NCBI GenBank assembly: GCA_001600355.1
Contig: BCJU01000004.1
Span: 372,001 to 436,000 of the forward strand
Direction of reading: 5' to 3'
Length of the DNA stretch: 64,000 nucleotides
Origin: Meira nashicola
Lineage: Eukaryota; Basidiomycota; Exobasidiomycetes; Exobasidiales; Brachybasidiaceae
Below are positions 29,383 to 62,418 of the stretch, piece after piece. The notes below the pieces were generated by a model, which saw nothing but the letters and a program-made list of their open reading frames with translations, had not been told where the DNA came from and did not search any database. The position numbers were made by a program, and so were the translations under genes. The first letter of the stretch is position 1; the number at the start of each line of letters is the position of its first letter.

Positions 29383-29841
29383 ATGATCTCTGTAAGGCTA
29401 GCGCTAGCCATCCTTTTGGTTACAGCAACTGCAGTATTTGCACAAGTCGTACCTTCCGTTTCTACTGATCCACTTAACGGATCTTCGTTCAGTACTCCAT
29501 TTTATACACCTCCAGTAACTTATACGATCACAACAACATTTCCAAGTGCAGGACCAACAACGGCAACCGTAATTTCAGGTTCAGCAGGACCTTCTCCCGC
29601 AACTGGAGCATACACATTTTCATATAATAAACCAATTTCTTCTTTAAGTGGTTTAGATAATCCTGCTCTTTCAAGTTCTTTATTAGCAAATGGATTACCT
29701 GTCGTTTATACAAACGCTTTCCAAGCTCCAACAAAAGATTTGCAAATCGTTGACGCTGCTCCTGGATCGCTAGATATTCCTTTCTTGGCAATCGGTTCAA
29801 TGGCTCTTGCAGGCATTCTAGGTGCTCTATGGATCTTGTAA
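29383..29841 (+). CDS. Small Ser/Thr-rich predicted GPI-anchored wall protein
   Basis: The protein has 152 residues from the ATG at 29383; the open frame extends 19 codons up to a TTG in the leader. There is a clear signal peptide (MISVRLALAILLVTATAVFA) and a Ser/Thr/Pro-rich middle without cysteines. The C-terminus is hydrophobic, FLAIGSMALAGILGALWIL, and runs to the stop with no charged tail. That is the architecture of a GPI-anchored cell-surface protein, with a small-residue cleavage site likely in AAPGS. The family is not recognised. The surface location is inferred from the two end signals. Confidence 0.8.
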   Translation: MISVRLALAILLVTATAVFAQVVPSVSTDPLNGSSFSTPFYTPPVTYTITTTFPSAGPTTATVISGSAGPSPATGAYTFSYNKPISSLSGLDNPALSSSLLANGLPVVYTNAFQAPTKDLQIVDAAPGSLDIPFLAIGSMALAGILGALWIL

Positions 29842-30268: not shown

Positions 30269-33200
30269 TCATTCATTAGAACTATAAACCCGTGTATTTA
30301 AACCGCTAGAACCATGTTCGGTTTCCCAACTTTGAATGAGATTATTAATTGTTGCATTTGATGCTGTCCTTCGCATTTTTGGTTGTAAAGGTTTGTTTAA
30401 TGCATGGAATCTTGCCAACTGTGGCGCATCTCTGCTTTCTTGCATACGCATTCCTGCTTGTGCTCTTGATCTTGCTTGTTCTAATGACATGGAAGAGAAC
30501 GAATTGACAGAAGCAGAAGAAGATGCTCTGTTTGGTCGTAAACGTTCACCATGATGACCATGTGGTGTTGTAGGTGCAGATTCTTGACGGTATCGTTGAT
30601 CTGGCTTTGAGCTTTGAGCTTGAGGTTGCTTTCCATGGTCCTTTGAAGGTGCATGTGGTTGACTCTTTGATCTTGCCAAATCTGCAGAAGAAGGTGATTT
30701 GTTCTGTTGTGATGAAGTTTTGGAAGAGGTGGTTTTTCTGACAACATCATCATCGAAATCGTTCCATTCATCATCACTTCTATCATGAACGCTTCGCAAA
30801 TTTTCTGAATCACTTTCAATACCTCCACGATAATCTTGCGAACTTCCAGGTTTCTCTCCCGTTTTTGCATCTACAATTTCTCCATCTTCATTCTCCATTC
30901 CTTTTCGCATTTCGTCATCCATCGTACTTCTACTTTTCTTTTCCAAATCTGCTTTCCTTTGACCGCGTTTCTCTAAAGCAGTTCGAACGAAATGGCGAGC
31001 ACTTTGTAATGCTTTTCTGCTTGCATCTAAAAACAAGAACGCTTGGAAAACATGAACGCAATCTTCATATAATTCATGACGAACGGCAACTCCAGCAATG
31101 GAAGCCTTGTGTGCCAACAGGGTAACTTCATCACGTAATGCTTCTGCATCTCCGCATTGAATTAACAATGGAGGTAAACCACGTAAATCACCAAATAGAG
31201 GACTTGCATATGGATGAGTGATGTATTGTTCTATCTTGTCTCCCAAATAAGCACGAACAGGGTTCATGTGATCCGTTGCAGGCGTTAAAGGCAAATAATC
31301 GTAAGGCGCATTTGTTTCCCAAGAATCACAAGACATCGTCAAATCTACCCAAGGACTGAACAAGATTGCACCGGATGGTAATTCGTATTTGTTGTCTCTT
31401 AAGTAGTATAAAAGTGCTAATGTTAAACCTCCACCGGCACTGTCACCACCTAAAACGATATTTGAAGGTGGTATACCCAAATCATCAACTAATCTGAACC
31501 AACTGCTAACAACATCATGCAAAGGTCCAGGGAATTGACAATCCGGAGCCAAACGATAATTGACCGCAAATAATCGACATTCGGTGTATTTTGAAAGTGC
31601 AATCGTTAAAGGTCGATGAGTGACGGCTGACATGACAAAATATGCACCTCCATGAATGTATAAGATCACACGCTCCTTGTTTGTTGATTTTCCGTTTCTC
31701 CATTCACTTTGTAGCCTTCTCCAAGTTTGTTTTCCTACAACCCATTCTCCCGTCAATTCACGAGTTCCATCTTCAGCCGCATCAGCGTCTTTGAGTAATC
31801 CACGTAAATTGCGTTTCTTGACGCGATACGTTACGGGTGTTATTAAACCATCTTTCGGAACAGGAAGGAAAGAACTCAAATCAAAGAATTGTTGCATACC
31901 CGAAATTGTTGCAAATTCAGAGTATTTTGCCGTATCACGCATTATCCGTGTAAAGATTGACATTTCAATTCCCCATGATTTTTTGGGAGGTCCATAAATT
32001 GCATGAGAAGCAAGTGCACTTCCGATCGAATAAGTCGTATTGACCAAAAATGGAACGTATCTCCACACTTTGGATAATGTCATGCCTTCTGGTTTGACAG
32101 GTTGAGCTGTGGGATCAGATCTTGCCGTAGTGGGAAGTGCAGATGTTTTGTATTGGTCCAACAAAGCATCAAGTGTTTTGCTTGATTTGGTGCTACCGCT
32201 GCGATGCCTTCTCGGCTTTTGTCTGGAAGAACGTTTAGATTCACTCTCTGGACTGCGAACTCGACTAGGCGTAGCAGTGGCATCAGAATACTCTGAACCG
32301 GGTGGCGTTGGGCTATCTGTTGATCCTTTGTTCACACCATCCATGTTGTCTTCCGTTTTGACAGGATTCTCGCCATGTTGTGTTGCATCTGCTGCTGCGG
32401 AAACGGCTGCCGTTCCACCTTTTTGTAGTTTCTTAACTTGTTCACTAGCATCAGGTACAAAAGCAGACATGACGACCAGATCGAGAGACATACCCGAATC
32501 ACCAAATCGCTTCGATCCCTTGTCTTTTGGGTCATCTTCTTTCTTGCCGTTCTCTTCATGTCCGGTGATCGTGGATGTACTTGCATTTTCTGCTTCTTTC
32601 TTTGCTGATTGTTCAGCACTTTCAGACCATGTACTGTGATTGCTGAGATGGGTTGCAAGCCGTAGTAAAGAGTGTAATCGTTCCGGATGAATATCGCGAG
32701 AATGTGTCTTTCGTAATTCGTGCAAATGTTGAAGATAATTAGCTGCTTCGACAGTAGTGACAACACGATTGAATTTGCCTTTGGATGTTTGATGACGTTT
32801 GGCTGATTCTTTAAGAGAAGCACCTTTGGGAGAATCTTTGCCATCGATCGGCGGTAGGTCTGCCAAGTAAGGATGTGCGAGGGCTTCTTTTGCCGTCATT
32901 CTCTTTTCACGAGGACATAGACAGCGTAAAATAAAGTCTCTTGCTATATCGGAAACGTCTCCCCAGTATTCTGGCTCAAATTCTACCTTCATCGCCAAGA
33001 TCTGTTGGAATAAAGTTGGTTGATCTTCTCCATAAAATGGCGTATAACCAGCCAACAAGCAATATGCAATCACACCACCACTCCAAATATCCACAGCGGC
33101 ATCATATCCTCTTCCGAGTAAGACTTCTGGAGCAACATATTGCGGGCTTCCACAAGCAGTCATGAGCATATGACCATCTTCTGGAATAAAACGAGAAAGT

Positions 33201-33994
33201 CCAAAATCGGAAATGACAATCTCGCTGGGTTCGGTTTTCCCTCTTAGAAGGATGTTCTCCGGTTTTAAATCTCTATGGATAATATCATGATCGTGTAGAT
33301 AGTCAATGCCTTCAAACATCTGACGAGTGATATGACGTGCATCTAATTCGTTGTAGTGCACCTTTTCAACCAATCGATCAAACAATTCTCCACCTCTGCA
33401 TAAATCCGTAACGATAAAGACGGCTTCTTTTGTTTCGTATAAATCCCACATTTTAATGATATGTGGATGTTCTACTCTACCAAGAATAGCAATTTCATCT
33501 TTAAGCATCTTTTCGTTACCCTCTTTTAATGGCTTCTTTGCGATAATTTTGAGAGCACGATCTTCACCTGTTGCTTTGACTTGGACCAATTTGACTAAAG
33601 CAAAAGAGCCTTGACCTAAAACTTTTTCTGTGATGACATACTTCTTTGAGAGAGGATAAGGCAAGACTGGAGTTCCATCTGATTCTGTATCTTTGAACCA
33701 TGTTTTAAAGGCTGTATGCAGATGATGTCCTACCATTCTGACCCTATCACGTTTTCGTATCCTACTTTCACTACTATGTTGACGTTTATGTAGTAAATGA
33801 GAAGGTCTATGTAAAAGATATGAATGATTCGTTCCACTATGTTCTGAATCTTCGTCACTGCTATTTAAAGGAACGTTTGGCGGAGAAAGTGTTCGTAATG
33901 CTGTTGTAGGTGATTTAGGTGAACTTGGAACTTGTGGCAGTGCTTCTTTTTCGTCGCGAGAGCGATCAGGAGATGTGACTGATGCAGGCTGCAT
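30269..33994 (-). CDS. CAMK-type protein kinase fused to a hormone-sensitive-lipase-type alpha/beta hydrolase
   Basis: One unbroken frame of 1241 residues from the ATG at 33994; the frame goes 17 codons higher only to a TTG. Residues about 120-380 are a complete Ser/Thr kinase: GQGSFALV glycine loop, ALKIIAKK with the lysine, HRDLKPEN, DFGLSRF and APE. The kinase resembles Ca/calmodulin-dependent kinases. A disordered linker of about 250 residues rich in Ser, Lys and Glu follows. Residues about 640-1010 are an alpha/beta hydrolase of the hormone-sensitive lipase family: oxyanion motif IHGGAY (781-783 HGG), nucleophile in GGDSAGGG (Ser852), Asp in GDAEALRDE and His in DCVHVF (about 981). The tail is disordered. 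All catalytic residues of both enzymes are present. A single-gene join of these activities is not an architecture I know. It suggests phosphorylation-linked control of a lipase or esterase, which is inference. Confidence 0.9.
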   Translation of the reverse strand: MQPASVTSPDRSRDEKEALPQVPSSPKSPTTALRTLSPPNVPLNSSDEDSEHSGTNHSYLLHRPSHLLHKRQHSSESRIRKRDRVRMVGHHLHTAFKTWFKDTESDGTPVLPYPLSKKYVITEKVLGQGSFALVKLVQVKATGEDRALKIIAKKPLKEGNEKMLKDEIAILGRVEHPHIIKMWDLYETKEAVFIVTDLCRGGELFDRLVEKVHYNELDARHITRQMFEGIDYLHDHDIIHRDLKPENILLRGKTEPSEIVISDFGLSRFIPEDGHMLMTACGSPQYVAPEVLLGRGYDAAVDIWSGGVIAYCLLAGYTPFYGEDQPTLFQQILAMKVEFEPEYWGDVSDIARDFILRCLCPREKRMTAKEALAHPYLADLPPIDGKDSPKGASLKESAKRHQTSKGKFNRVVTTVEAANYLQHLHELRKTHSRDIHPERLHSLLRLATHLSNHSTWSESAEQSAKKEAENASTSTITGHEENGKKEDDPKDKGSKRFGDSGMSLDLVVMSAFVPDASEQVKKLQKGGTAAVSAAADATQHGENPVKTEDNMDGVNKGSTDSPTPPGSEYSDATATPSRVRSPESESKRSSRQKPRRHRSGSTKSSKTLDALLDQYKTSALPTTARSDPTAQPVKPEGMTLSKVWRYVPFLVNTTYSIGSALASHAIYGPPKKSWGIEMSIFTRIMRDTAKYSEFATISGMQQFFDLSSFLPVPKDGLITPVTYRVKKRNLRGLLKDADAAEDGTRELTGEWVVGKQTWRRLQSEWRNGKSTNKERVILYIHGGAYFVMSAVTHRPLTIALSKYTECRLFAVNYRLAPDCQFPGPLHDVVSSWFRLVDDLGIPPSNIVLGGDSAGGGLTLALLYYLRDNKYELPSGAILFSPWVDLTMSCDSWETNAPYDYLPLTPATDHMNPVRAYLGDKIEQYITHPYASPLFGDLRGLPPLLIQCGDAEALRDEVTLLAHKASIAGVAVRHELYEDCVHVFQAFLFLDASRKALQSARHFVRTALEKRGQRKADLEKKSRSTMDDEMRKGMENEDGEIVDAKTGEKPGSSQDYRGGIESDSENLRSVHDRSDDEWNDFDDDVVRKTTSSKTSSQQNKSPSSADLARSKSQPHAPSKDHGKQPQAQSSKPDQRYRQESAPTTPHGHHGERLRPNRASSSASVNSFSSMSLEQARSRAQAGMRMQESRDAPQLARFHALNKPLQPKMRRTASNATINNLIQSWETEHGSSGLNTRVYSSNE

Positions 33995-35288
33995 AGCACA
34001 GTACAGCAACGCAAAAAGATGTGTGTTGTAAGGTAAGCTTTCCAAATAGTGTGCGATACCTTTTCTCCTAGCAATTGATCACTTCCTCTTTTACTGATAT
34101 TCTTCTTGCTATTCTTCGGGAAAAGTTGTACTTGCTGCAGCTATTTTTGTAAGATTTGCCTGTGATGAGCGTAAATGTTTAGATTTGCAACTTTTAGACT
34201 TTATTCTCCAGATCGACGACCACTCTTTTTTCGCATTCGTACTTAACCAATCAAAGAAAGTATGGAGTTAAAGGCGGCGGTAAAGGAGCGCCGTCTAATA
34301 ATCGATTGTGTGCAGTGTTCCAACTTTATTCAATCGCGGTAGCTCCACCCCACTCGTAACACACACATATGTAAACCAACACACACGGCACACAAGGGGG
34401 AGAATTTCTTTTTGATCGAAAGGGAGGGATCATACGCCGCCGTTGACGCCTGGGTAGGTTATACGCTGATGCTGAGCATAGCTAGCGAATTACAAGGCAC
34501 GCAAGCATTTTTATAAATTTTGCTCGCGCCTACGCTTTTAACACACACACACACACACGTTCTTCAACTTGTCCTGGCCTAGAATCAATCAATCGATACG
34601 CATATAGCTCTTCCAACATGTGAAAGCGATTAAATCAAGCGGCCAGGCATAGGATGCATACCACAGTATCTTCAACGATCCGCTTTTGCAAGGGGGCTTT
34701 CCGTTCAATCAAAGCATGCTGGTCTTCGCATCTGATCCTCGCTTATCACTGAGAAGAGAAAAAGGGGTCAAAATGTTTTCTCAGTGTAAGATTGATGAGC
34801 TTAATTAGGATGCGTGTTGATAGATTGTTGACATGAGATATAAGAATGATAGGATTAGTAGCTAGTATGGCAATATTCTGCGTCTAACTTTCACCTTAGA
34901 TAAGAGTTTGACTTTCAATGAATAAGTAAAATGGAAATCGGAGACGGAGTGATTTACTTAAAGCTTCCATAAATTAGCTCAAAGATGACTTATGGCGAGA
35001 GAAAATGTTGGTCTTTCTGTTGTCCAGATCAGATCTTGAATTGCCAAAAAATGCTAAACGCGTGTAAGATAGTCTAGATTACTCAGCAAATTTCTGTTAT
35101 TCGGTTCTCCTGGCTTGCATTTTCAACGCGGCTACATGCGTACTTTTTTTTAACGGGTTCCGGTACTAGCTCTTCCCCGGACGCACACTCCACGCATTAA
35201 AAAACAAAAAACAAGACCAAGATCACTTTCTTCTTCCCCTCACACCTCATTCACAAAAGAGTTCAACCTTATATACAATTTAACAAAA
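33995..35288. promoter_or_regulatory. Long divergent region upstream of the kinase-hydrolase and dienoyl-CoA reductase genes
   Basis: About 1.3 kb with no supported gene. It contains CA-rich patches near 34361-34396, an 18-base AC microsatellite at 34541-34558 and an ACGCGT at 35058-35063. A pyrimidine-rich leader lies just before the ATG at 35289. Its length suggests complex regulation or an unseen non-coding transcript. Confidence 0.35.
34541..34558. repeat. AC dinucleotide microsatellite
   Basis: Nine AC units in a row lie in the intergenic region. Further, shorter CA-rich patches lie 150-180 bases to the left. Confidence 0.92.
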
Positions 35289-36259
35289 ATGGCGGACGAA
35301 GATCGTGATCCACGTATTTTTCAAACGAAAACACTTGCTTCACAAAAAGTGTTTCAACCTGACATCTTTAAAGGAAAAGTTTTATTTTGTACAGGAGGAG
35401 GAAGTGGAATTTGTTATGGAATGGTACAACAAATTATGCGTCATGGAGCTAATGCAGCAATTATGGGACGTAAAGCAGATCGTTTAAATGGAGCAGCAAC
35501 TCAATTAGCTAAAGATGCAAATAATGGAACGCGTTGTATTGCAACTCCTGGTGATGTACGTAAATTTGACGATTTAAAAGCTGCAGTTCAAAAGACAATT
35601 GAACAATTTGGAAGAATTGATTTCGTCATTGCTGGAGCTGCAGGCAATTTCCTTGCTCCTTTAGATGGTGTTTCACCTAATGGATTCAAAACTGTTCAAG
35701 AGATCGATATGTTGGGAACTTTTCATACTTTCAAAGCTACAATCGATGAAATCAAGAGAACACACGGAGTATATATTCACATTTCAGCCACTCTTCATTA
35801 CACTGCAATTCCTTGGCAAGCAGCAGCTTCTTCTGCCAAAGCAGGCATTGACGCCTTGAGTCAAAGTATAGCAGTTGAATATGGTCCTTTTGGTGTTCGT
35901 AGTAACGTTATCGCACCTGGTATGATCAGTGGAACGGAAGGAGCAGATCGTTTAACTCCAAAAGGTGCACAATCAATGGTTGAATCACGTATTCCACAAC
36001 AAAGGATTGGTGTGATTGATGATATTGCAAATATGGGAGTATTTTTATTCTCTGATGCAGCTGCTTATTGTTCTGGCGCTAAATTTGTAGTAGATGGTGC
36101 TGCTCAACATTTCCCTGGTCCTTGGTTGCCATATCCTGATTCTCAACTAGATCCTCAAGGATTGAAAGATTTGATTATGGGATCAAAGGTGAGTGATTGT
36201 GATAGGACATTGTTAATTGAGTCTAAACTGACGTCACATCTTCCTTTTAATAGCTTTAA
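35289..36259 (+). CDS. SPS19: Peroxisomal 2,4-dienoyl-CoA reductase, PTS1 completed by splicing
   Basis: Exon 1 is 35289-36188. A 65-base intron (GTGAGT...TAG, 36189-36253) follows, and exon 2 is only CTT TAA (36254-36259). The spliced product has 301 residues ending in GSKL*, a perfect PTS1. The TGGGSGI nucleotide motif (35-41) and the block ISATLHYTAIPWQAAASSAK are those of Sps19/DECR2, where the usual SDR Tyr is replaced and the Lys (184) kept. The enzyme reduces 2,4-dienoyl-CoA with NADPH during breakdown of unsaturated fatty acids in peroxisomes. If the intron is retained, the frame stays open to 36371 and gives 360 residues without a PTS1. Confidence 0.95.
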
Positions 36260-36412
36260 ATGCAAGGGTAAAATTATCTTGTATACTGTAGAATCTATAA
36301 CGAATGAAACAAAGCCTTTACTTAAAGAGAGGATTCTTAGCGCACTCGAGCCTCACACAAAATTTCTTTAGATGCAGAGTATCTCATTTATAGTGTCATG
36401 CATGCTTAGATC

Positions 36413-53634: not shown

Positions 53635-55166
53635 TCACCATTTAGTGAAATTATTTTTGAAAAATTCATCATCTTCCATATCTTCGATTAATGGAACATC
53701 AACAGAGAAATGTTTTTTTGGTTCCCCATTTTCGTTAAAGAACAATTTTCGTTTCTCCATCACATTTCTGTACAATGTGAAATTTCCCATGATGTGTGGC
53801 GAGTATCGATATGAGTGCAAAATATCTTTATTCTTCACTGTGATAAAATTTTCCGTCAAACTTTCCTTGATGAAACCAATAAGTTGTGTTTTCAAATCTT
53901 CTTTCTCATTTAACGACTCGAACTTACACCATATTAAAGTCTGTAATTTGATCGTCTTTTCAATTGACAAACGTTTAACGTAAGTGTATTTGAGAGATGA
54001 TAGAAAGTTTTCAGATAAACGCTCTTCTTCTGGAAGTACAACTAATTTTCGCAAATTAGGGAAAGTCTTTCCATGGAAAATTGAATCAAATTCCTCGCTC
54101 ATAACGATGGATGAGTGTAGATACAATGTTTCCAAGCTTTTCTTTGCCATAGGGTCCAAGTAACGCCAAATATTGTTTTGGGATAAAAAGGGTGTATTCA
54201 CATAGATCGATTGAAGTTGCGAGAGATTCTGAAACATTAACATTCCTACACTCATATTTGACTGCAGATGAGCAAGTTTAGGAGTCTTGAATGTAATCCA
54301 AGGTGTTCTGTAATTCCATCAATAGCGACGAAACGAAGGTTGGGAAAATGAAAAGTTAAGTTCGCCAGAGTCTCATGTCTGCCATTGTTGAAATACGCCG
54401 TGAGCGAAATTGTCAAATATTCTAGTGTATTTGATACTTGCTCCATTAGATTGACTAATGATGGACTCAATGGAAAACTTTTAAAATTCAAAAGGTCAAT
54501 CGCCCGAGCTTCTCGAATGATATTGTCAAATGGGAAATTATCTGCTTCTTCAGTAAAAAAGGTATAACCTGGTACTGAGTTTATGTTGCTATTTTCATAT
54601 ATTTCTTCTTTCCCCGAAATGCTCAAGATTTCCAAAGATGCTTGTAGTATCCTGGCATCGCCTTGGGAGGGGAAAGGCGTATCTCCGTGGACTCTAACTA
54701 CCAAAGACCGTAAGTTGGCGCAGTTGAAGATACTTTCTCTACTTGAATTATGAATAATTCTTCCAGACAGGTTTTTCCGAGGAAGACTTAACCAAAATTC
54801 GAATTGAAGCTCTTCATCTTTATCAAAACCAAGAACAACATCTTTAAGACTTGCATCCAAAATGAAATCTAATAGGTCAACACTTGCGTCGTATTGTTTC
54901 GGAAATTCTTTTGTCAAAATTATAGCCATTTGCTCGAACTTGACATTGTTCCAGGAACGTATTTGTTTCAGAATTGTCAAATCTTTCTCTGGATCAGGAT
55001 TTACCGCGTCATCTTTGCGAATATACATCATATTGGTCCAAAGAGTTTTCGATGCACGACTGTAGTCTTTCCAGGCTTTGCACACCCTTTGCACCTTGAC
55101 ACGATCTTATACATCAAGGTAAAACCAGATCTTTTCTACAAGCTCTAATGGTAGATTTGGAACCAT
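53635..55166 (-). pseudogene. F-box family pseudogene (nonsense codon plus frameshift)
   Basis: The region aligns along its length with the intact neighbour at 55742-57205. Translation from the ATG at 55166 gives an F-box start (LPLELVEKIWFYLDV) and hits TAA at 55107-55109, where the paralogue has an ordinary codon. After that the frame is open (RVKVQRVCKAW, SRASKTLW, LEILSIS, NTLEYLTIS) to a TGA near 54252. Around 54300-54320 the similarity jumps to another frame, which continues to 53635 (TFKTPKLAHLQS, LQSIYVNTP, IKLQTLIW, NVMEKRKLFF). No GT-AG intron fits either site. Two lesions in 1.5 kb suggest recent inactivation; sequencing error at both sites is the alternative. Confidence 0.83.
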
Positions 55167-55741
55167 TTTGTGTGAGTGATTAAGCTGGTAGATGAGAGTC
55201 AAGAAGAAAGCACTTTTTGCATTTTGGAGTGCACATATTGTAGTCGTGTATCTTGTGGGCTGAATAACTATTTTAGTCCGGCTCCGTTCGCAAGATTTTT
55301 TCTGGTGTTTTGCAGCAGTGGGTTCGGAGGCTCACAGGCGGCATTTATTCGGTAAAAAAGCAATCACAATATATCACCACTGATATGGCAATCTGGATTC
55401 AATACAAACAACTGTTTGAAATATGCAAAATGGTCTTCTAGCAATTGTATATGATGAAAAGGCCAAATGGAATGCTTAGAAAGTCTTATCATCTCGTTTG
55501 CTGAGTCAATCGTGCCTACATATTCGACTCAAGAGGATGTGTATGCATTCATTGTGCCTGGGCGCGCGCGCGCAGCGCTCAAGAGTGTTAACACTTTGGT
55601 AACGTCATTCCTCACCACACGCATACCAAATACGGTCAGTCTTCAATCTGTGGTCATTAAAATTAATCAGTCTATATTCATTTTGGAATCTATGGAACTT
55701 GTGCTCTTTGAATTATCGACGTTTCTTGTCTTGCAGAGCAA
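55167..55741. other. Spacer between F-box pseudogene and the intact F-box gene
   Basis: No supported gene. A GGCGCGCGCGCGCAGCGC alternating purine-pyrimidine tract lies at about 55561-55578. A plus-strand open frame at 55467-55745 spans that tract and has no domain. Confidence 0.35.
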
Positions 55742-57205
55742 CTAGCATCGAGTGCCAGCATTAGAGCGATTGAAAAGGAAATTTTTTCGGATCACATCTC
55801 CGTCAAAAAAGAGCTTTCTCTTTTCCATTACATTACGACATTCAGCAAATTCATCCAAAATGGTAGGTGAGAAACGATAGGTTGTCAAATTGGGAAACTC
55901 GGGATTGGTATCATATCGAGTGAAATTGTCGGCGACGTGCTTTAAGATAAATTCCAATCCGTTCTTTTCCTTGCTTTCATTCTGTTTTGGCAAATTCACA
56001 TACTGCCATATCAATGTATGAAGCTTACGATTGATGGAAGAAGGCGGTCCATACAAATCCAAAAGGCATTGTTCAGTCAATGAAGGAATCGGTTTGATCA
56101 CGACCAGCTTTTGAAGTTTTGGTAGAGCAAAATTGTTGTGCAATTGATGAATAATGATGCGGAACAATTGGGGGCTTGTTTTGACGAATAACTTTTGCAA
56201 ATTTTTGTTTGGAATGAGCTCTAAGAAGTGCCAATATTTACTTTTGTCATCGAAATTGCCGTTGATATACAATGATTGCAATGGCGGACACGGTTTGAAA
56301 ATTTCCAAATTGGGCACATGGCTCACCTGCAAGGACTGCAAATTGGGGCAATTGAATCTTACAGCATCTTGACGCAAGTCATCTGCTTCCAAGGCAAAAA
56401 AACGCAGGTTGGAAAAGTGGATGATTTTCGTCTCAGCGGGGAGACAGCTAGGCGAAAAGACAGCTGCTGACACGATATTGATCGTCAAATACTCTAAAGT
56501 ATTAGCAGCAATTTCGAGGAAACTGATTGTAAGACAATCGCAAATTTGTTCTTTTGTATCCAACAAATCGATTACTCGAGCCTTTTTTACAATATGACGA
56601 ATGGGATCGCCTTCTTGAAAACTGGAAGCCATTCTGATGTTTTGCTTTTCCTCTTGGAATTGGCCGTGATAATTCTCTTTATTCATAGAAATACTCAAAA
56701 TTTCCAATTGCGTTGGCGTTGCATTGCCTTTTCTTGCTAAGGGCGGCATGCTTCCTCGTGGAGAGTTCATAATCAAAGCACGCAAGTTCATGCAAATTTG
56801 GACTTTTCTTATTCGCGTGACATACAGCGTGGACCAGTCATCTGATCGACTTCCATCCCCAGAACCAAGAACAAGATCCCGTACATTCGTAAAGGGTAAC
56901 ATTTCAAGGAAGTTAACACTTGCTTTGAACTGTTCAGTGGTATCACAACGAAGTGTGATGGACAATTGATCAAAACGCACATCATCTTTCCAAGATTTGA
57001 TTTGGCTCAATATAGAATAATCTAGTTTGGTATCTGCGTTTATCTCTTGATCATCGCGAAGATACAAAGTGCCTTTCCAGAGATTCTTTGATGCGATACT
57101 GCAGTCATGCCAAGTCTTACAAACACGCTGAATCTTGACTCGTTCTTGAATGTCCAAGAACAACCAGATGTTTTGCCAAAGCTCTATTGGCAAATTTTGT
57201 GTCAT
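55742..57205 (-). CDS. F-box protein of the local family (copy 2)
   Basis: The protein has 487 residues from the ATG at 57205; an extra 11 codons above reach only a TTG. The F-box is at the very start: LPIELWQNIWLFLDIQERVK then IQRVCKTWHDCSIASKNLW. The remaining length is irregular leucine-rich, LRR-like, with family blocks LEILSISM, ARVIDLL, NTLEYLTINI, FNCPNLQSLQV, LHTLIWQ and NVMEKRKLFF. The F-box should bind Skp1 in an SCF ligase and the LRR-like part would select substrates. No target is known. It is intronless. Confidence 0.86.
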   Translation of the reverse strand: MTQNLPIELWQNIWLFLDIQERVKIQRVCKTWHDCSIASKNLWKGTLYLRDDQEINADTKLDYSILSQIKSWKDDVRFDQLSITLRCDTTEQFKASVNFLEMLPFTNVRDLVLGSGDGSRSDDWSTLYVTRIRKVQICMNLRALIMNSPRGSMPPLARKGNATPTQLEILSISMNKENYHGQFQEEKQNIRMASSFQEGDPIRHIVKKARVIDLLDTKEQICDCLTISFLEIAANTLEYLTINIVSAAVFSPSCLPAETKIIHFSNLRFFALEADDLRQDAVRFNCPNLQSLQVSHVPNLEIFKPCPPLQSLYINGNFDDKSKYWHFLELIPNKNLQKLFVKTSPQLFRIIIHQLHNNFALPKLQKLVVIKPIPSLTEQCLLDLYGPPSSINRKLHTLIWQYVNLPKQNESKEKNGLEFILKHVADNFTRYDTNPEFPNLTTYRFSPTILDEFAECRNVMEKRKLFFDGDVIRKNFLFNRSNAGTRC

Positions 57206-57854
57206 TTCGATTAATCTTTGGGCAATTTTTGCAGTCAAGATGAATTTGAGAAGGTTGTTTTCAGAAGGTTTTGGTGGTTATTGGAAAAAGTATGGAAGAA
57301 ATAAGGAGGGCGTCTATAAGACTACTGCAAAGCAGTAATCTGTTCTTCCTTTTCCCTCATCCCAACAAAAAAGCACAAATCCATGAAAACTATGCCTTAC
57401 GGATAAAAGATTAAATCAAGATAAAATCACCGAGGGCTGAGGTTCGACGGAACATCGATCATAATGCACGACCTTGAAGCAATATTATTATAATACATAA
57501 AGCGGCAAAGGCGGTCTCTAAAATGTGCTGAGCAAGCACTAAGCTCACAAAGTTCGCTTTGATATGTCCAAAGGAATAAATGGCGCCGCAAAACTGAGTA
57601 TGTGTCCGTCAACAAAGCTCACGCCTTTTATGCCGATCCAAATTCTTTGTATATCATCCTTTTGCGGACCGTCAAAGCGTTGCGGTGCCTTATTTGATAT
57701 TGTTGGAAAGAAAATACCAGCCTGCATTTAAATTGTTACCCACATCGGCGGGTTGCAAAATACTGCAAGTTTGCTTCTTGGTCAATTTCATTTCACGCAA
57801 GTCAATTCGGAGCAGTCATCCATTGTTTTGATAAGATTGTTTGTATGGTACGTA
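57206..57854. other. Spacer between F-box copy 2 and the DUF3405 gene
   Basis: About 650 bases without a supported gene. Two short minus-strand open frames (57427-57615, 57545-57727) show no domain or codon pattern that I can recognise. Confidence 0.35.
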
Positions 57855-59615
57855 TTACAGTTGACGTTTGATTGGATGCAAAAGACTTGGCGCTCTGCAA
57901 ACATTGCTATTGTTTCTCCAAGCATCATAAATGTCTTTTGCATGTGCACCATCGTAATAAAAACTGAATTCTCTCAACACTCTCTCGTTCACTTTCCGAT
58001 AAATGTCTTCTCGATTGACAGCTTTGGAAAGCGTTCCTTCTGGCCAAATATGACGTGTATAGATCGGATGAGGAACGTATACGCCTTTCCAATTTTCATT
58101 CGTTTTTGATTGTGCATTACGTACCAAAATTGTTGCAGCATAATTCTCACAATGAGCTGAAATCTTTTCTTCGGAATTTGCATCACTCATTGCTTTCAAT
58201 AATCGTTTGGAGAACCGAACATTTTTCCCGATTGAAGCTTTTTGCAAAGTATCTTTTGGAAAATCTATTGGGAAGAGCAAAAAGAAGAAATAATGAGCGA
58301 CTGCTATTCAAGTGTTATCAGTATCGATCACATTTCACTCACTCTGATAATCGTAAGCCCAATAATAACCACCATTATTTGCATTGAAGAATGGATTTAA
58401 AGTGACCAGATCAGCTTCTCCTTCATTTGCTTCGAAGCGATCGCCAAACTTGGATGATGCTGGAATATGCCAACGGGTTTGTTTCTCAAGCAAATGATCG
58501 ATTGGAGCTTGATTGGCGTATTGCGCGATTTTGTCGAGTGTTTCTCCATATTCTTGCGTACTTCGGGTATCCATCTCCCAATTCCAAATGAAGTCGTACT
58601 GGGGATGATTCTTGGAAAACACTTGTACGGGCATGAAGCAAGACCGATACGAGCTTGTAGGAATCATATGATTCAAGAATTTACCTGGAAGATTTGGGTA
58701 CAACCAAGTCATTTCTTCTTCACTCCAAAGCGTAGTTAATGACCAAAATTCTCTTGGAATACTTCTTTGCAAGATTGCTAATCTTTCTTTTTCCGACATG
58801 GCATATGAGGAATTACGTGTATGAACTTCAAGCAGCAAATGGACATCATATCGTTTCTTCGGTTCAGGATTCAACGCTAGCTCAACAATTAATGCACGAA
58901 CGTTGCGAATGTCATCCAAACCCCAAGTGTAATTCTCATATGCGCGAAGAACAAGAGCTTGTTTAGCTATTGCACTTTGACCTCGGCATTGCTCAACGAC
59001 CTTTGCCCAATCGTGGTAACCACCTTTGGCTTCAGCTTTAATGTTAATGTCAATCAGCTCTGTATTCATTTCACCTGCTTCTTCCCAGAAAGGACGACTT
59101 GGTAGCTCTATTGAAGAAGGATATCCTTGCAGGTAGTTCATTTCAAGGGCTTGATTTTCGTAAGGTCGATATCGCTCAGCATATGTAGTACATTTGCCAA
59201 GATCGAAAAGATCTATTGAACCCACTGCTGGAATAGGATGGTTTTTGGGCGTGTTGAATATCTTGATTGGTTTTGTGTTCCCTTTACCAATTTGACATGT
59301 TGATGCCAATCGGCTAGGTAAGGCTTTTGATTCTATTGCTTTTAGAGGAGCAGGATCGTTCAACTTGAGCTTATTCAATGCCTTCTCATAAGAGTTGTAC
59401 GATCTGTATAAGCTTAAAGAGTCTCGAATCTCCAAAACTTCTTGCAAGAATGAATATGTGACAATCACTCCAATAATGACCACGATCAGTCGAACGATGA
59501 ATGAAGGAGTATGGACTACTTTTGCGGACAATATTCGGTGTATGTCATCATGTATTGAAGCGCGTTCTTTCGTGAGCTTATATCGATCTTCTTTTTCTGA
59601 TAGATGTTGTTTCAT
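57855..59615 (-). CDS. DUF3405 type II membrane protein (2 exons)
   Basis: Exon 1 is 58343-59615 and exon 2 is 57855-58264, with a 78-base phase-1 intron (GTGAGT...TAG). The product has 560 residues. A cytosolic N-terminus of about 37 residues precedes a membrane segment (about 38-56, FIVRLIVVIIGVIVTYSFL), giving type II topology. The lumenal part has RYDVHLLLEVHTRNSS, YDFIWNWEMDTRST and, in exon 2, VYVPHPIYTRHIWP and LLHPIK, which fit the fungal DUF3405 family. That family is uncharacterised; a glycosyltransferase-like Golgi function is a guess from topology and Asp-rich blocks. It sits among four F-box paralogues on the same strand. Confidence 0.8.
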
Positions 59616-59932
59616 TGCTATGCTTGGCGATGATGACGGTTTGATAGAACATGTGAATATCTGTGAGGTCTAAATTTAGGCTAAAAATGCATGCTTTCAA
59701 AATGACCCAAAACAACGGTTGATATTAGCGTTGTGCTAGCGCCTCCAATTTTAGCTCAATCTATTTTTGTTCTCGAGCACAGCCTTGACTTCTCAATTCC
59801 GGGGTGCATGAGAAAGTCATTATATTGCTACAATCAAAGAATGTACAAGTAGAAGTTTGGTATACAGTTTCGTAATTTCGTGAACGGGTATATGTGCATG
59901 TGATGTACAAGATAGATGTCTTTTTCGGATAT
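59616..59932. other. Spacer between DUF3405 and F-box copy 3
   Basis: No gene is seen in this short spacer. It should hold the DUF3405 promoter and the 3' end of the F-box gene. Confidence 0.3.
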
Positions 59933-61738
59933 CTAGAGATCTGATGAAGCTCCATCGCTATTTTGGTCGTAATCTTCGTAAAGGTATAAGCTCTCACATG
60001 GAGAATCGGCTCGAATGCAAGCTTTTTCAGCGAAAAGTGCAATGAGATCGTCTTCATTGTCCCCATTCATACCACTGTCTGATTTGATGGAAGGCCAAGC
60101 TCGATGCTCCCTCTGGAGAAATTGTTGAAAGTGGTTCAATTTGTCGGTTTCCGATTTGCAACGAACAAATTCACCCATCAATTCAGCTGAATATTCCATA
60201 TCGTTGACTGGATCATCAAACGTTTGCCTTATGCACCTGAAGTTTGGTGTAAAATGCTCTCGCATAAAATCAAAAGTGGCAGTGCCGGGATATTCATCAT
60301 CTTTTGCGCATTGCCAAACCAACATATCAATCTTGCGGAAGTTGTAGAGCTTTGTTGGTGACAGGTTGTAGAAAATGTCGAGTTTCAATCTGAACAAAGG
60401 ATTTTGTGAAGCCAAAACGACAATTTTGCGTAAGTACGGAAATTTTTCTTTTTGAAAGAGAAGGTCGAAAAAACGTGATTCAGACATACAATCGCTGTAA
60501 ATATACAGTGTACGTAATGTATTTGCTGCGATTTGCGTAAGATGGCTCCAAGCAGAATCCTCATTCAGATCTTGTGTACCAGTAAGAAAGAGTGCCTCGA
60601 TTGAGGGAATTTTCAAGAAGATTTTCAGATTTTGCAAGCTGTTCACTTTTAGAAACTTGAGATTCGGACAATTGAATTTAACAATAGGGCTTGGTTCGTT
60701 TTGGATGTTGAGCCAGAGAATGTGTAGTCTTGGTAGCCTAACAAACTTTATTTCAGGCTCTTTGTTGCACTGACAGCTGGCTTGCTCGCAAATCTTCTCC
60801 AAAGCGGGAGTGCATAAGTTGAGGGTGAGATATTCAAGCGTTTGACATGCTGCAGACAACATATTCGATAACATCTTCTTGCAACTGATTGCGTCGAAAT
60901 CAATCAAGTCAATGACACGAGCTTTTTTGACCATATCGTACTCTGAACGATGTTGTTGAACGTTCAGAAAAGTAGAGTTCTCACCAGTCGTATTCTGAAC
61001 ACTCAGAATATCCAATTCGCATTGATCGATAGGCATTTTTTGCGAAAAATGAGACAGAAGATTATAGTCTATGTTCAAAATCAAAGAACGTAGATTCGAG
61101 CAATTAGAAATGCCTTTGAGAAGGGCGAGATCTTGGGCATTTTTCGCTTTTCTCAGTATTCCATCCAATAGCTGCCATTTAGGACTTTCAGATGGTATTG
61201 GAGAACGAGGCTCTTTTAAGCTAGAGCGCATACATTCTATTTGATGTTGTCTTTCATCTTCTTTTGAAAAGCAGCAAAGGCCTGGTATCTTTTCGAAATT
61301 TTCAAGAGATTCTTTGATTCGCATTTCCGTCATAGGCTTAAAGATGTCGCTAGTTTTTGAACTGATAATCAAATGTTGAACATTCATTCCAGGCAACAAG
61401 AGAAGAAAATTCTTGGAAGCGTGTATTTGATATTCGTTGAATACTTGAAGGGAAACAGCAAGGTGAGAGAATTCCATTTTCGTCCACTTTCCTACAAGAG
61501 ACAATATACGCATTTGATCGCGGATGTCTGCTTCACAATCTCTCAGATAAAGCATATTTTTCCAAATGTATGCGCTTTTCCGACTATGATGATTCCATAA
61601 TTCTGAGACACGCTGAACTTTTACACGATCTTTGATGTCCAAATATTCCCAAATCCGCTCAATCACCTTCATTGGAAGACGTACTGCGTTTGAAGTGGAC
61701 GAATTAATCGCTTCAGTCGGTTTGCTTGTAGAAGCCAT
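59933..61738 (-). CDS. F-box protein of the local family (copy 3)
   Basis: The protein has 601 residues from the ATG at 61738; the frame extends 21 codons up to a TTG only. The F-box reads LPMKVIERIWEYLDIKDRVK then VQRVSELWNHHSRKSAYIW. Family blocks follow: NLRSLILNI, CELDILSV, ARVIDLIDF, QTLEYLTLNL, FNCPNLKFLKV, IDMLVWQC and YSAELMGEFV. It is longer than copy 2 because of an insertion before the first repeats (about 155-235) and an acidic C-terminal tail. No intron is seen. The substrate is unknown. Confidence 0.86.
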   Translation of the reverse strand: MASTSKPTEAINSSTSNAVRLPMKVIERIWEYLDIKDRVKVQRVSELWNHHSRKSAYIWKNMLYLRDCEADIRDQMRILSLVGKWTKMEFSHLAVSLQVFNEYQIHASKNFLLLLPGMNVQHLIISSKTSDIFKPMTEMRIKESLENFEKIPGLCCFSKEDERQHQIECMRSSLKEPRSPIPSESPKWQLLDGILRKAKNAQDLALLKGISNCSNLRSLILNIDYNLLSHFSQKMPIDQCELDILSVQNTTGENSTFLNVQQHRSEYDMVKKARVIDLIDFDAISCKKMLSNMLSAACQTLEYLTLNLCTPALEKICEQASCQCNKEPEIKFVRLPRLHILWLNIQNEPSPIVKFNCPNLKFLKVNSLQNLKIFLKIPSIEALFLTGTQDLNEDSAWSHLTQIAANTLRTLYIYSDCMSESRFFDLLFQKEKFPYLRKIVVLASQNPLFRLKLDIFYNLSPTKLYNFRKIDMLVWQCAKDDEYPGTATFDFMREHFTPNFRCIRQTFDDPVNDMEYSAELMGEFVRCKSETDKLNHFQQFLQREHRAWPSIKSDSGMNGDNEDDLIALFAEKACIRADSPCESLYLYEDYDQNSDGASSDL

Positions 61739-62418
61739 TATGGAAAAGGCTTGACAAATCCAATTCGGAAGCAACAACCGTATTTTTGCTATTAATGTCA
61801 ATTATTATGAATGCAAATCAATCACGATGACTTTATTTTGAGAGAAGTCTGTAGTTTTCAATCATCAAATAGATAATTTTGTGATACTAATTGTTGACGG
61901 TGAAGTGTAAAGGCAAGATTGGTGTGCTGAGTCCGAAAAATAAATGTCCATAAGCGTGTCCGAGTCACGACCGCGTTTTTCTTGGTGTAAAGAGTGGCTG
62001 CTCAGCACTCGCTTAACTGTTGAATCTCTTTGGAATAAACTTGCGTATTATGAAAAGTTATAGAGCTAAGCATTTGAACACAGATAGATAAACTTACAAG
62101 CATCTGTCATTGATTTGATCAGTACTCGCTGTAGGCAAAATTGTTCGCGTCATATTTGCTTTGTGAATAGGTTTGCCCAAGCCCAAAAAAAAGAAACGCG
62201 GGGCTTTAGCTTCGCGAAATTCTCCTGTTCACAACATCATCTTGCGCCGGCGCCCGCGCGTATACAAAATCCTGATGTCAGGTTTATAAGCCTGAAAATC
62301 ATTTGGTAGATTATGTTACATTGTTTATCATTATATCGAGAAATAGGAATCTATATATACAATCACGAATCAATCAAACACATTCGGGAGGCTATTTTGG
62401 TATTGAAAGTATGTTGCT
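61739..62418. other. Spacer between F-box copies 3 and 4
   Basis: About 680 bases with no supported gene. A GC-rich patch GCGCCGGCGCCCGCGCG lies near 62244-62260, comparable with GC-rich patches in the other spacers of this cluster. The open frame at 62115-62309 spans this patch and is not supported. Confidence 0.35.

Follow-up and report, generated by a model that had tools for sequence, protein, structure and literature searches.

A protein kinase and a hormone-sensitive-lipase-like hydrolase joined in one fungal gene, with a candidate kinase site in the hydrolase tail

Here we analysed a 64,000-nucleotide stretch of Meira nashicola DNA (contig BCJU01000004.1, positions 372,001 to 436,000 of the forward strand; hereafter the window), in which one gene on the minus strand joins a protein kinase to an alpha/beta hydrolase. 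The locus raises two questions: whether the two enzymes are truly one chain and, if so, whether the kinase works on the hydrolase to which it is attached. Our analysis makes it near certain that the single-chain fusion is real. It also points to a candidate answer to the second question, a serine in the hydrolase tail whose surroundings may suit the kinase.

One open frame for kinase, linker and hydrolase

The preliminary description of this locus, made from its sequence, had read it as one stop-free 3.7-kb frame encoding both enzymes, and this was borne out. The frame is read on the minus strand from 33994 down to 30269 as 1,241 codons plus a stop, and an intron is unnecessary. The stop-free stretch itself spans 30269..34078; at the base composition of the window, the chance of a given frame staying open for 1,269 codons is ~10^-36. 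The plus-strand reading contains many stops. Consistently, codon usage prefers the fusion frame across kinase, linker and hydrolase; the final 81 codons score as neutral (−0.011 per codon), yet even there the frame ranks first among the six. Besides the two domains, Pkinase (residues 123–377, E 9.2e-69) and Abhydrolase_3 (777–984, E 2.4e-45), Pfam reports Say1_Mug180 (686–887, E 1.8e-13). The nearest named protein, from Meira miltonrushii, is 99% identical over residues 640–1030, and among the 40 matches listed from the window's genome (17.9 Mb, 20 contigs) both halves are covered at the fusion locus only. The features of the gene up to the hydrolase domain are as follows.

30269..33994, minus strand: coding sequence of the kinase-hydrolase fusion P0001, 1,241 amino acids, stop included; identified by the single open frame, codon usage, Pfam and homologues.
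33734..33736, minus strand: Met87, a possible alternative start (MVGHHLH...); the annotated Meira protein P0003 and four Tilletia kinases (P0123–P0126) start at the matching MVG.
32864..33628, minus strand: protein kinase domain of the calcium/calmodulin-dependent protein kinase I (CaMKI) type, residues 123–377, with Lys149, Glu167, Asp242, Asp263 and Thr279.
32639..32815, minus strand: post-kinase helices, residues 394–452, at the position of the CaMK autoinhibitory/calmodulin-binding segment.
32186..32635, minus strand: linker judged disordered, residues 454–603; predicted local distance difference test (pLDDT) <50 at residues 368–502 of P0003, low conservation outside islands.
32459..32503, minus strand: conserved linker island, residues 498–512 (DSGMSLDLVVMSAFV region), shown by most non-Malassezia representatives.
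31670..32185, minus strand: N-terminal extension of the hydrolase, residues 604–775, with a hydrophobic helix; common to unfused hydrolases of other basidiomycetes.
31043..31666, minus strand: alpha/beta hydrolase domain like that of hormone-sensitive lipase (HSL), residues 777–984.
31439..31441, minus strand: catalytic Ser852 (GDSAGG), in 65/65 rows.
31142..31144, minus strand: catalytic acid Glu951 (EXL motif), in 64/65 rows; the exception is the truncated P0070.
31052..31054, minus strand: catalytic His981, in 64/65 rows, with the same truncated P0070 as the exception.

The kinase motifs named in the preliminary description (GQGSFALV, HRDLKPEN, DFG and APE) were all found in P0001. The VAIK-type lysine, the alphaC glutamate, HRD, DFG and APE are complete there and in 38/38 non-Malassezia fused rows; these 38 fused rows exclude Malassezia, the basal pair P0104/P0105 and the fern-labelled P0070. 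Lys149, Glu167, Asp242, Asn247, Asp263, Thr279 and Glu290 each occur in 38/38 of them and the first loop glycine in 37/38. CaMKI and CaMK1D chains rank first among solved kinases, with CaMKI (1a06) on top (E 1.2e-74; 8.7e-76 using the kinase part alone). Thr279 aligns with the activation-loop threonine of CaMKI in a TACG(T/S)P setting and is presumably of the kind phosphorylated by CaMKK. The glutamate of GGELFD, which we take to have a role in reading a substrate arginine at −3, is likewise present in 38/38 fused rows. The post-kinase helices are common to the Tilletia kinases, and their block reaches pLDDT 52–84 in the full model. The linker looks disordered as first described, but spans only ~150 residues (roughly 454–603) instead of ~250, with the Pfam domains ~400 apart. 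Its island is short and hydrophobic, of the DSxMxxDLxVM type, and reads DLTVMMV in P0104/P0105.

The fold of the hydrolase half agrees with an HSL-like (family IV type) hydrolase, and the HGG oxyanion motif and GDSAGG nucleophile are present in 65/65 rows. Of the catalytic residues proposed earlier, HGGAY, GDSAGG and the histidine stand. The aspartate does not: it is ruled out as the catalytic acid, and the triad position is taken by Glu951 in GDAEALRDE. According to passages of one source (PMC10385968), GDSAGG-type bacterial HSL-like esterases have their acid in such an EXL motif. Say1_Mug180 (PF10340) scores 50.6 bits against a cut-off of 21 but covers only profile positions 41–239 of 374, and the N-terminal domain of animal HSL is not among the six Pfam families found in P0001. 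Judged from these features, the hydrolase is an HSL-like (family IV type) ester hydrolase with putative lipase-like activity.

Could the locus instead be two genes merged in assembly or annotation, or two transcripts? Nine GT-AG stretches with a branch-like motif lie in the linker, five of them frame-keeping, so that splice forms are possible. Against an artefact, which we regard as highly improbable, the same fusion appears across many separate assemblies and metagenome contigs, the linker frame is open and codon-biased, and the linker islands are conserved; together these rule out an assembly or annotation merge. An assembly error here is excluded further because several fused records sit on contigs that range from hundreds of kilobases up to megabases. 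Internal promoter- or terminator-like sites between 31900 and 32900 were not above chance, by bacterial-type patterns that carry little weight in a fungus.

Spread and origin of the fusion

Using the hydrolase part as query and proteins of 0.55–1.75 times the length, we obtained 1,251 matches, the best 120 of which were listed. Both Pkinase and the hydrolase are carried by 64 of these 120: 25 from named fungi, one labelled Adiantum and 38 without an organism name. The domains are therefore not always in separate genes, a possibility that the preliminary description had raised together with an assembly error here, and a fusion private to the window's genome is ruled out. The 25 named fungi are Ustilaginomycotina from separate assemblies: Meira, Exobasidium, Ceraceosorus, two Jaminaea, Pseudozyma, Testicularia, three Sporisorium, four Ustilago, Moesziomyces, Melanopsichium, Kalmanozyma, Thecaphora, Tilletiaria and six Malassezia. 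In databases these proteins are named after one half or after both, with entries such as 'related to calmodulin-dependent protein kinase', 'putative lipase/esterase from carbohydrate esterase family CE10' and 'serine/threonine protein kinase/acetyl esterase/lipase'.

In the other 56 of the best 120 (7 from Tilletia, 49 others), the hydrolase is present and the kinase absent. By genus name we take the 49 to be Pucciniomycotina (23, one of them unnamed and assigned by tree position) and Agaricomycotina (26); all those listed from these two groups have the hydrolase in a kinase-free chain. For the kinase, no standalone orthologue in basidiomycetes other than Tilletia appeared among the matches listed (120 of 5,812; 120 of 7,870), and the next matches listed after Tilletia come from early-diverging fungi and animals. 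The CMK-like paralogue of the window's genome itself (L002) groups with kinases of early-diverging fungi (support 90/80).

Some records stand apart. P0070, recorded for a fern, Adiantum nelumboides, groups with Exobasidiomycete fusions when the hydrolases are placed in a tree and is probably a fungal contaminant of the fern assembly. The metagenomic fused proteins P0104 and P0105 (58–62% identity) belong to a divergent lineage and lie outside Malassezia and the rest in that tree. Two single records join the unfused hydrolase to other domains, PF00557 in P0121 of Tricholomella, a record named methionine aminopeptidase 2, and PF02487 in P0076 of Pseudohyphozyma; either could be a merged gene model.

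In the hydrolase tree (74 rows), the fused rows and Tilletia form one group beside the unfused basidiomycetes, with a Shimodaira–Hasegawa-like approximate likelihood ratio (SH-aLRT) support of 99. Three trees nest Tilletia within the fused rows, with support of 89 for the hydrolase, 82/78 for the kinase and 86/89 for both parts together. The Tilletia kinases are separate proteins of 433–445 residues, 59–60% identical to the fusion kinase; in T. maclaganii the locus tags of the halves are far apart and their longest contigs are unequal in size. Because Tilletia falls inside the fused group in all three trees, one fusion with a later split in Tilletia is favoured. Fusion after the branching of Tilletia is less favoured, yet not rejected when the fused rows are forced together (approximately unbiased (AU) test, p 0.228 for the kinase and 0.091 for both parts). 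A single fusion event near the base of Ustilaginomycotina is most likely.

A candidate kinase site in the hydrolase tail

Two further features lie at the end of the chain.

30272..30484, minus strand: C-terminal tail element, residues 1171–1241, found by a fixed pattern; block pLDDT 56–75 in a model of residues 590–1241.
30347..30376, minus strand: CaMK consensus MRRTASNATI, residues 1207–1216, acceptor Ser1212 (30359–30361), in 32/38 fused rows.

Across Basidiomycota, the tail element (last 70 residues) comprises basic residues, a serine, a helix and a short T-rich end. The fixed pattern, which overlooks divergent forms, finds it in 35/38 fused rows, 7/7 Tilletia, 26/26 Agaricomycotina, 11/23 Pucciniomycotina, 0/2 basal fused rows and 0/24 Malassezia-like rows. 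The CaMK substrate consensus is given in part of one source as Phi-x-R-x-x-S/T-x-x-x-Phi (PMC12043318). Among the rows found by the pattern, the full consensus stands at the homologous serine in 31/35 fused rows, 1/7 Tilletia, 0/11 Pucciniomycotina and 0/26 Agaricomycotina. The earlier suggestion that the kinase could act on its own lipase half thereby gains a candidate target in the hydrolase tail: by these patterns, no row outside the fused lineage has the whole CaMK consensus there, apart from one of Tilletia. In Agaricomycotina, 25/26 rows have the arginine at −4 in place of −3. The tails of P0104/P0105 end in RSGSD-like motifs, and the full consensus is absent there.

Searches for the strict motif gave a graded picture. 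Within the last 80 residues, a test unfair to relatives with longer ends, it occurs in 31/38 fused rows, 1/7 Tilletia, 1/23 Pucciniomycotina and 1/26 Agaricomycotina. Anywhere in the tail, it occurs in 32/38 fused rows (2.4 after shuffling), 14/26 Agaricomycotina (3.2) and 6/23 Pucciniomycotina (3.7). In the Ser1212 column, 38/38 fused rows have Ser/Thr and 38/38 a hydrophobic residue at −5; arginine at −3 is found in 34/38 and a hydrophobic residue at +4 in 37/38.

This column also bears on the idea that the fusion only ensures equal amounts and a shared location of two pathway enzymes, with no direct control and a tail consensus inherited by chance or for another purpose. Tilletia indeed manages with the halves as separate proteins, and another basidiomycete metabolic fusion, spermidine synthase-saccharopine reductase, is described in part of one source (PMC10051792). 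We nevertheless consider such mere co-location unlikely: the consensus positions are kept while the neighbouring ones (−2, −1 and +1 to +3) vary among the 38 fused rows, and no other such site is conserved, the consensus at any other place in the protein being limited to ≤4/38. Control of the tail by protein kinase A (PKA) is not favoured either. Ser1212 is preceded by arginines at −3 and −4, and the acceptor place that RRxS would require (−1) is variable (S 13, A 11, G 5 and others, of 38).

We give about an even chance to the proposal, drawn from these sequence patterns, that the kinase phosphorylates the tail of its own lipase in cis and so forms a self-regulating lipase. A calcium signal would bring calmodulin to the post-kinase helices, perhaps with an upstream kinase acting on Thr279, and switch the kinase on. 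The kinase would then reach across the flexible ~150-residue linker and phosphorylate Ser1212, just before the last tail helix. The phosphate would alter how the tail packs against the hydrolase or a lipid surface, and lipid-ester hydrolysis would change with it. The phosphorylation, its cis action and its effect are inferred, as are the substrate and the role of calcium. In the model of residues 590–1241, the tail forms two helices and strands (pLDDT 56–75) preceded by ~120 residues below 50, which is a hint only that it folds back. Other basidiomycetes presumably regulate the tail in trans.

Malassezia offers a view of the fusion after the tail has gone. The 24 Malassezia-like rows (six named), in all of which the tail element is absent by pattern, form one clade (99). 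The slope of kinase-to-hydrolase distance is 2.73 in Malassezia (228 pairs) versus 1.04 in the other fused rows (682 pairs), and is still 2.49 (152 pairs) without P0062, P0064, P0065 and P0069. In these four rows, Asn replaces the HRD Asp and the second loop glycine is gone; three have DFC, DFF or DFY for DFG, which P0064 retains. They form a nested clade (95) adjoining P0059, whose kinase motifs are intact, and their hydrolase triad is intact too. The pattern fits the tail being the chief partner of the kinase, with the site lost first and the kinase drifting afterwards, and is suggestive only. It enters a wider account, which we hold tentatively and with some doubt: a calcium-switched lipase in which an old tail site was tuned to the fused kinase for gating in cis, and in which tail loss in Malassezia deprived the kinase of its main purpose and left one clade with a pseudokinase, the hydrolase remaining under strong constraint.

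The same rows speak to a different role, in which the hydrolase half is mainly an anchor or scaffold, tethering the kinase to a membrane or lipid surface through its hydrophobic N-terminal extension and tail; the targets of the kinase would be other proteins, and Ser1212 would be hit in trans by Snf1/AMPK or another CaMK. The hydrophobic N-terminal extension is conserved, the tail element occurs also in unfused relatives without a kinase in the chain, and some Malassezia have an intact kinase but no tail site, all as an anchor would have it. Hydrolysis nevertheless looks like the primary duty of this half, because the triad is kept in every complete row and the Malassezia hydrolase evolves slowly while the kinase decays; we judge the anchor role somewhat unlikely.

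Several observations weigh against phosphorylation of the tail in cis and its calcium input. The RxxSxxxPhi core is present in 10/11 Pucciniomycotina and is thus older than the fusion, only the hydrophobic residue at −5 being new relative to them, and the basal fused rows have the Ser1212 site in 0/2 by pattern. The 38 fused rows are related and include near copies, so their counts are not independent trials. Many Malassezia rows retain HRD and DFG without the tail, making other kinase targets possible, and Malassezia is a single lineage. In the full-length model, domain placement is unsure (predicted template modelling score (pTM) 0.47) and the tail is modelled poorly (highest block pLDDT 63). 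The post-kinase helices may bind calmodulin, as their position and a weak alignment with the autoinhibitory segment of CaMKI/CaMK1D suggest. The consensus also suits Snf1/AMPK, so that a kinase in trans is possible.

Neighbouring genes and known systems

At about 35289–36371 on the plus strand, a divergent neighbour ~1.3 kb from the fusion start is a short-chain dehydrogenase by Pfam and, we assume, resembles peroxisomal 2,4-dienoyl-CoA reductase; a tie to the use of fatty acids is an appealing possibility. A 152-residue protein with a signal-peptide-like start and a hydrophobic end lies at 29383–29841 (plus strand) and has no Pfam match. Further away, 53635–61801 (minus strand) holds four similar open frames (53635–54318, 54252–55106, 55742–57277 and 59933–61801), three of which begin with an F-box-like RVKxQRVxxxW; the group may be a tandem array of F-box genes.

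Among the openly licensed papers listed, none describes the fusion, how widely it occurs or the site in the tail; subscription work may exist. Kinase and hydrolase are each of known kinds, and control of lipid breakdown by external kinases is textbook knowledge. New here are the union of the two in one chain with a matching site and the serine-helix element of the hydrolase tail, which, judged by sequence motif, carries a CaMK consensus in fused proteins. If the proposal is true, a lipase-type enzyme and the calcium-type kinase that controls it would share one chain, and the switch on lipid breakdown would take a compact form. The fusion has persisted across a subphylum of fungi to which both smuts and skin yeasts belong, and evolution supplies natural controls: a split form in Tilletia, forms free of the tail site in Malassezia, and a dead-kinase form.

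Compared with CaMKI and CaMK1D, the fusion kinase shares all kinase motifs, the activation-loop threonine in TACG(S/T)P, helices behind the domain and the GGELFD glutamate. CaMKI, however, is a short protein acting in trans, whereas the fusion has ~860 further residues with a hydrolase. The GDSAGG-type HSL-like esterases EstE5, E40, EstD11 and Est8 are bacterial or metagenomic single-domain proteins of ~300 residues, to which the fusion adds a long N-terminal extension, the tail and the kinase. Mammalian LIPE is a lipase under kinase control, as part of one source describes (PMC9754850), and the fusion has an HSL-like catalytic domain in common with it. LIPE differs in its Ser-Asp-His triad, in being controlled by PKA and AMPK in trans, and in an N-terminal domain that Pfam does not find in the fusion. 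The parallel with cAMP control of animal HSL, drawn in the preliminary description, accordingly holds as far as a lipase under a basophilic kinase and fails in its details: the kinase is CaMKI-like, the tail serine has no RRxS, and the HSL N-terminal domain is lacking by Pfam. The unfused hydrolases (P0071–P0103 and P0106–P0121) share the N-terminal extension and tail element, at 54–62% identity in the listed alignments, but those of Pucciniomycotina and Agaricomycotina are kinase-free and have the full CaMK consensus at the tail serine in 0/11 and 0/26. Tilletia has the same kinase (P0123–P0126) and the same hydrolase (P0039–P0045) as the fusion, but in two genes and with the full consensus at the tail serine in 1/7.

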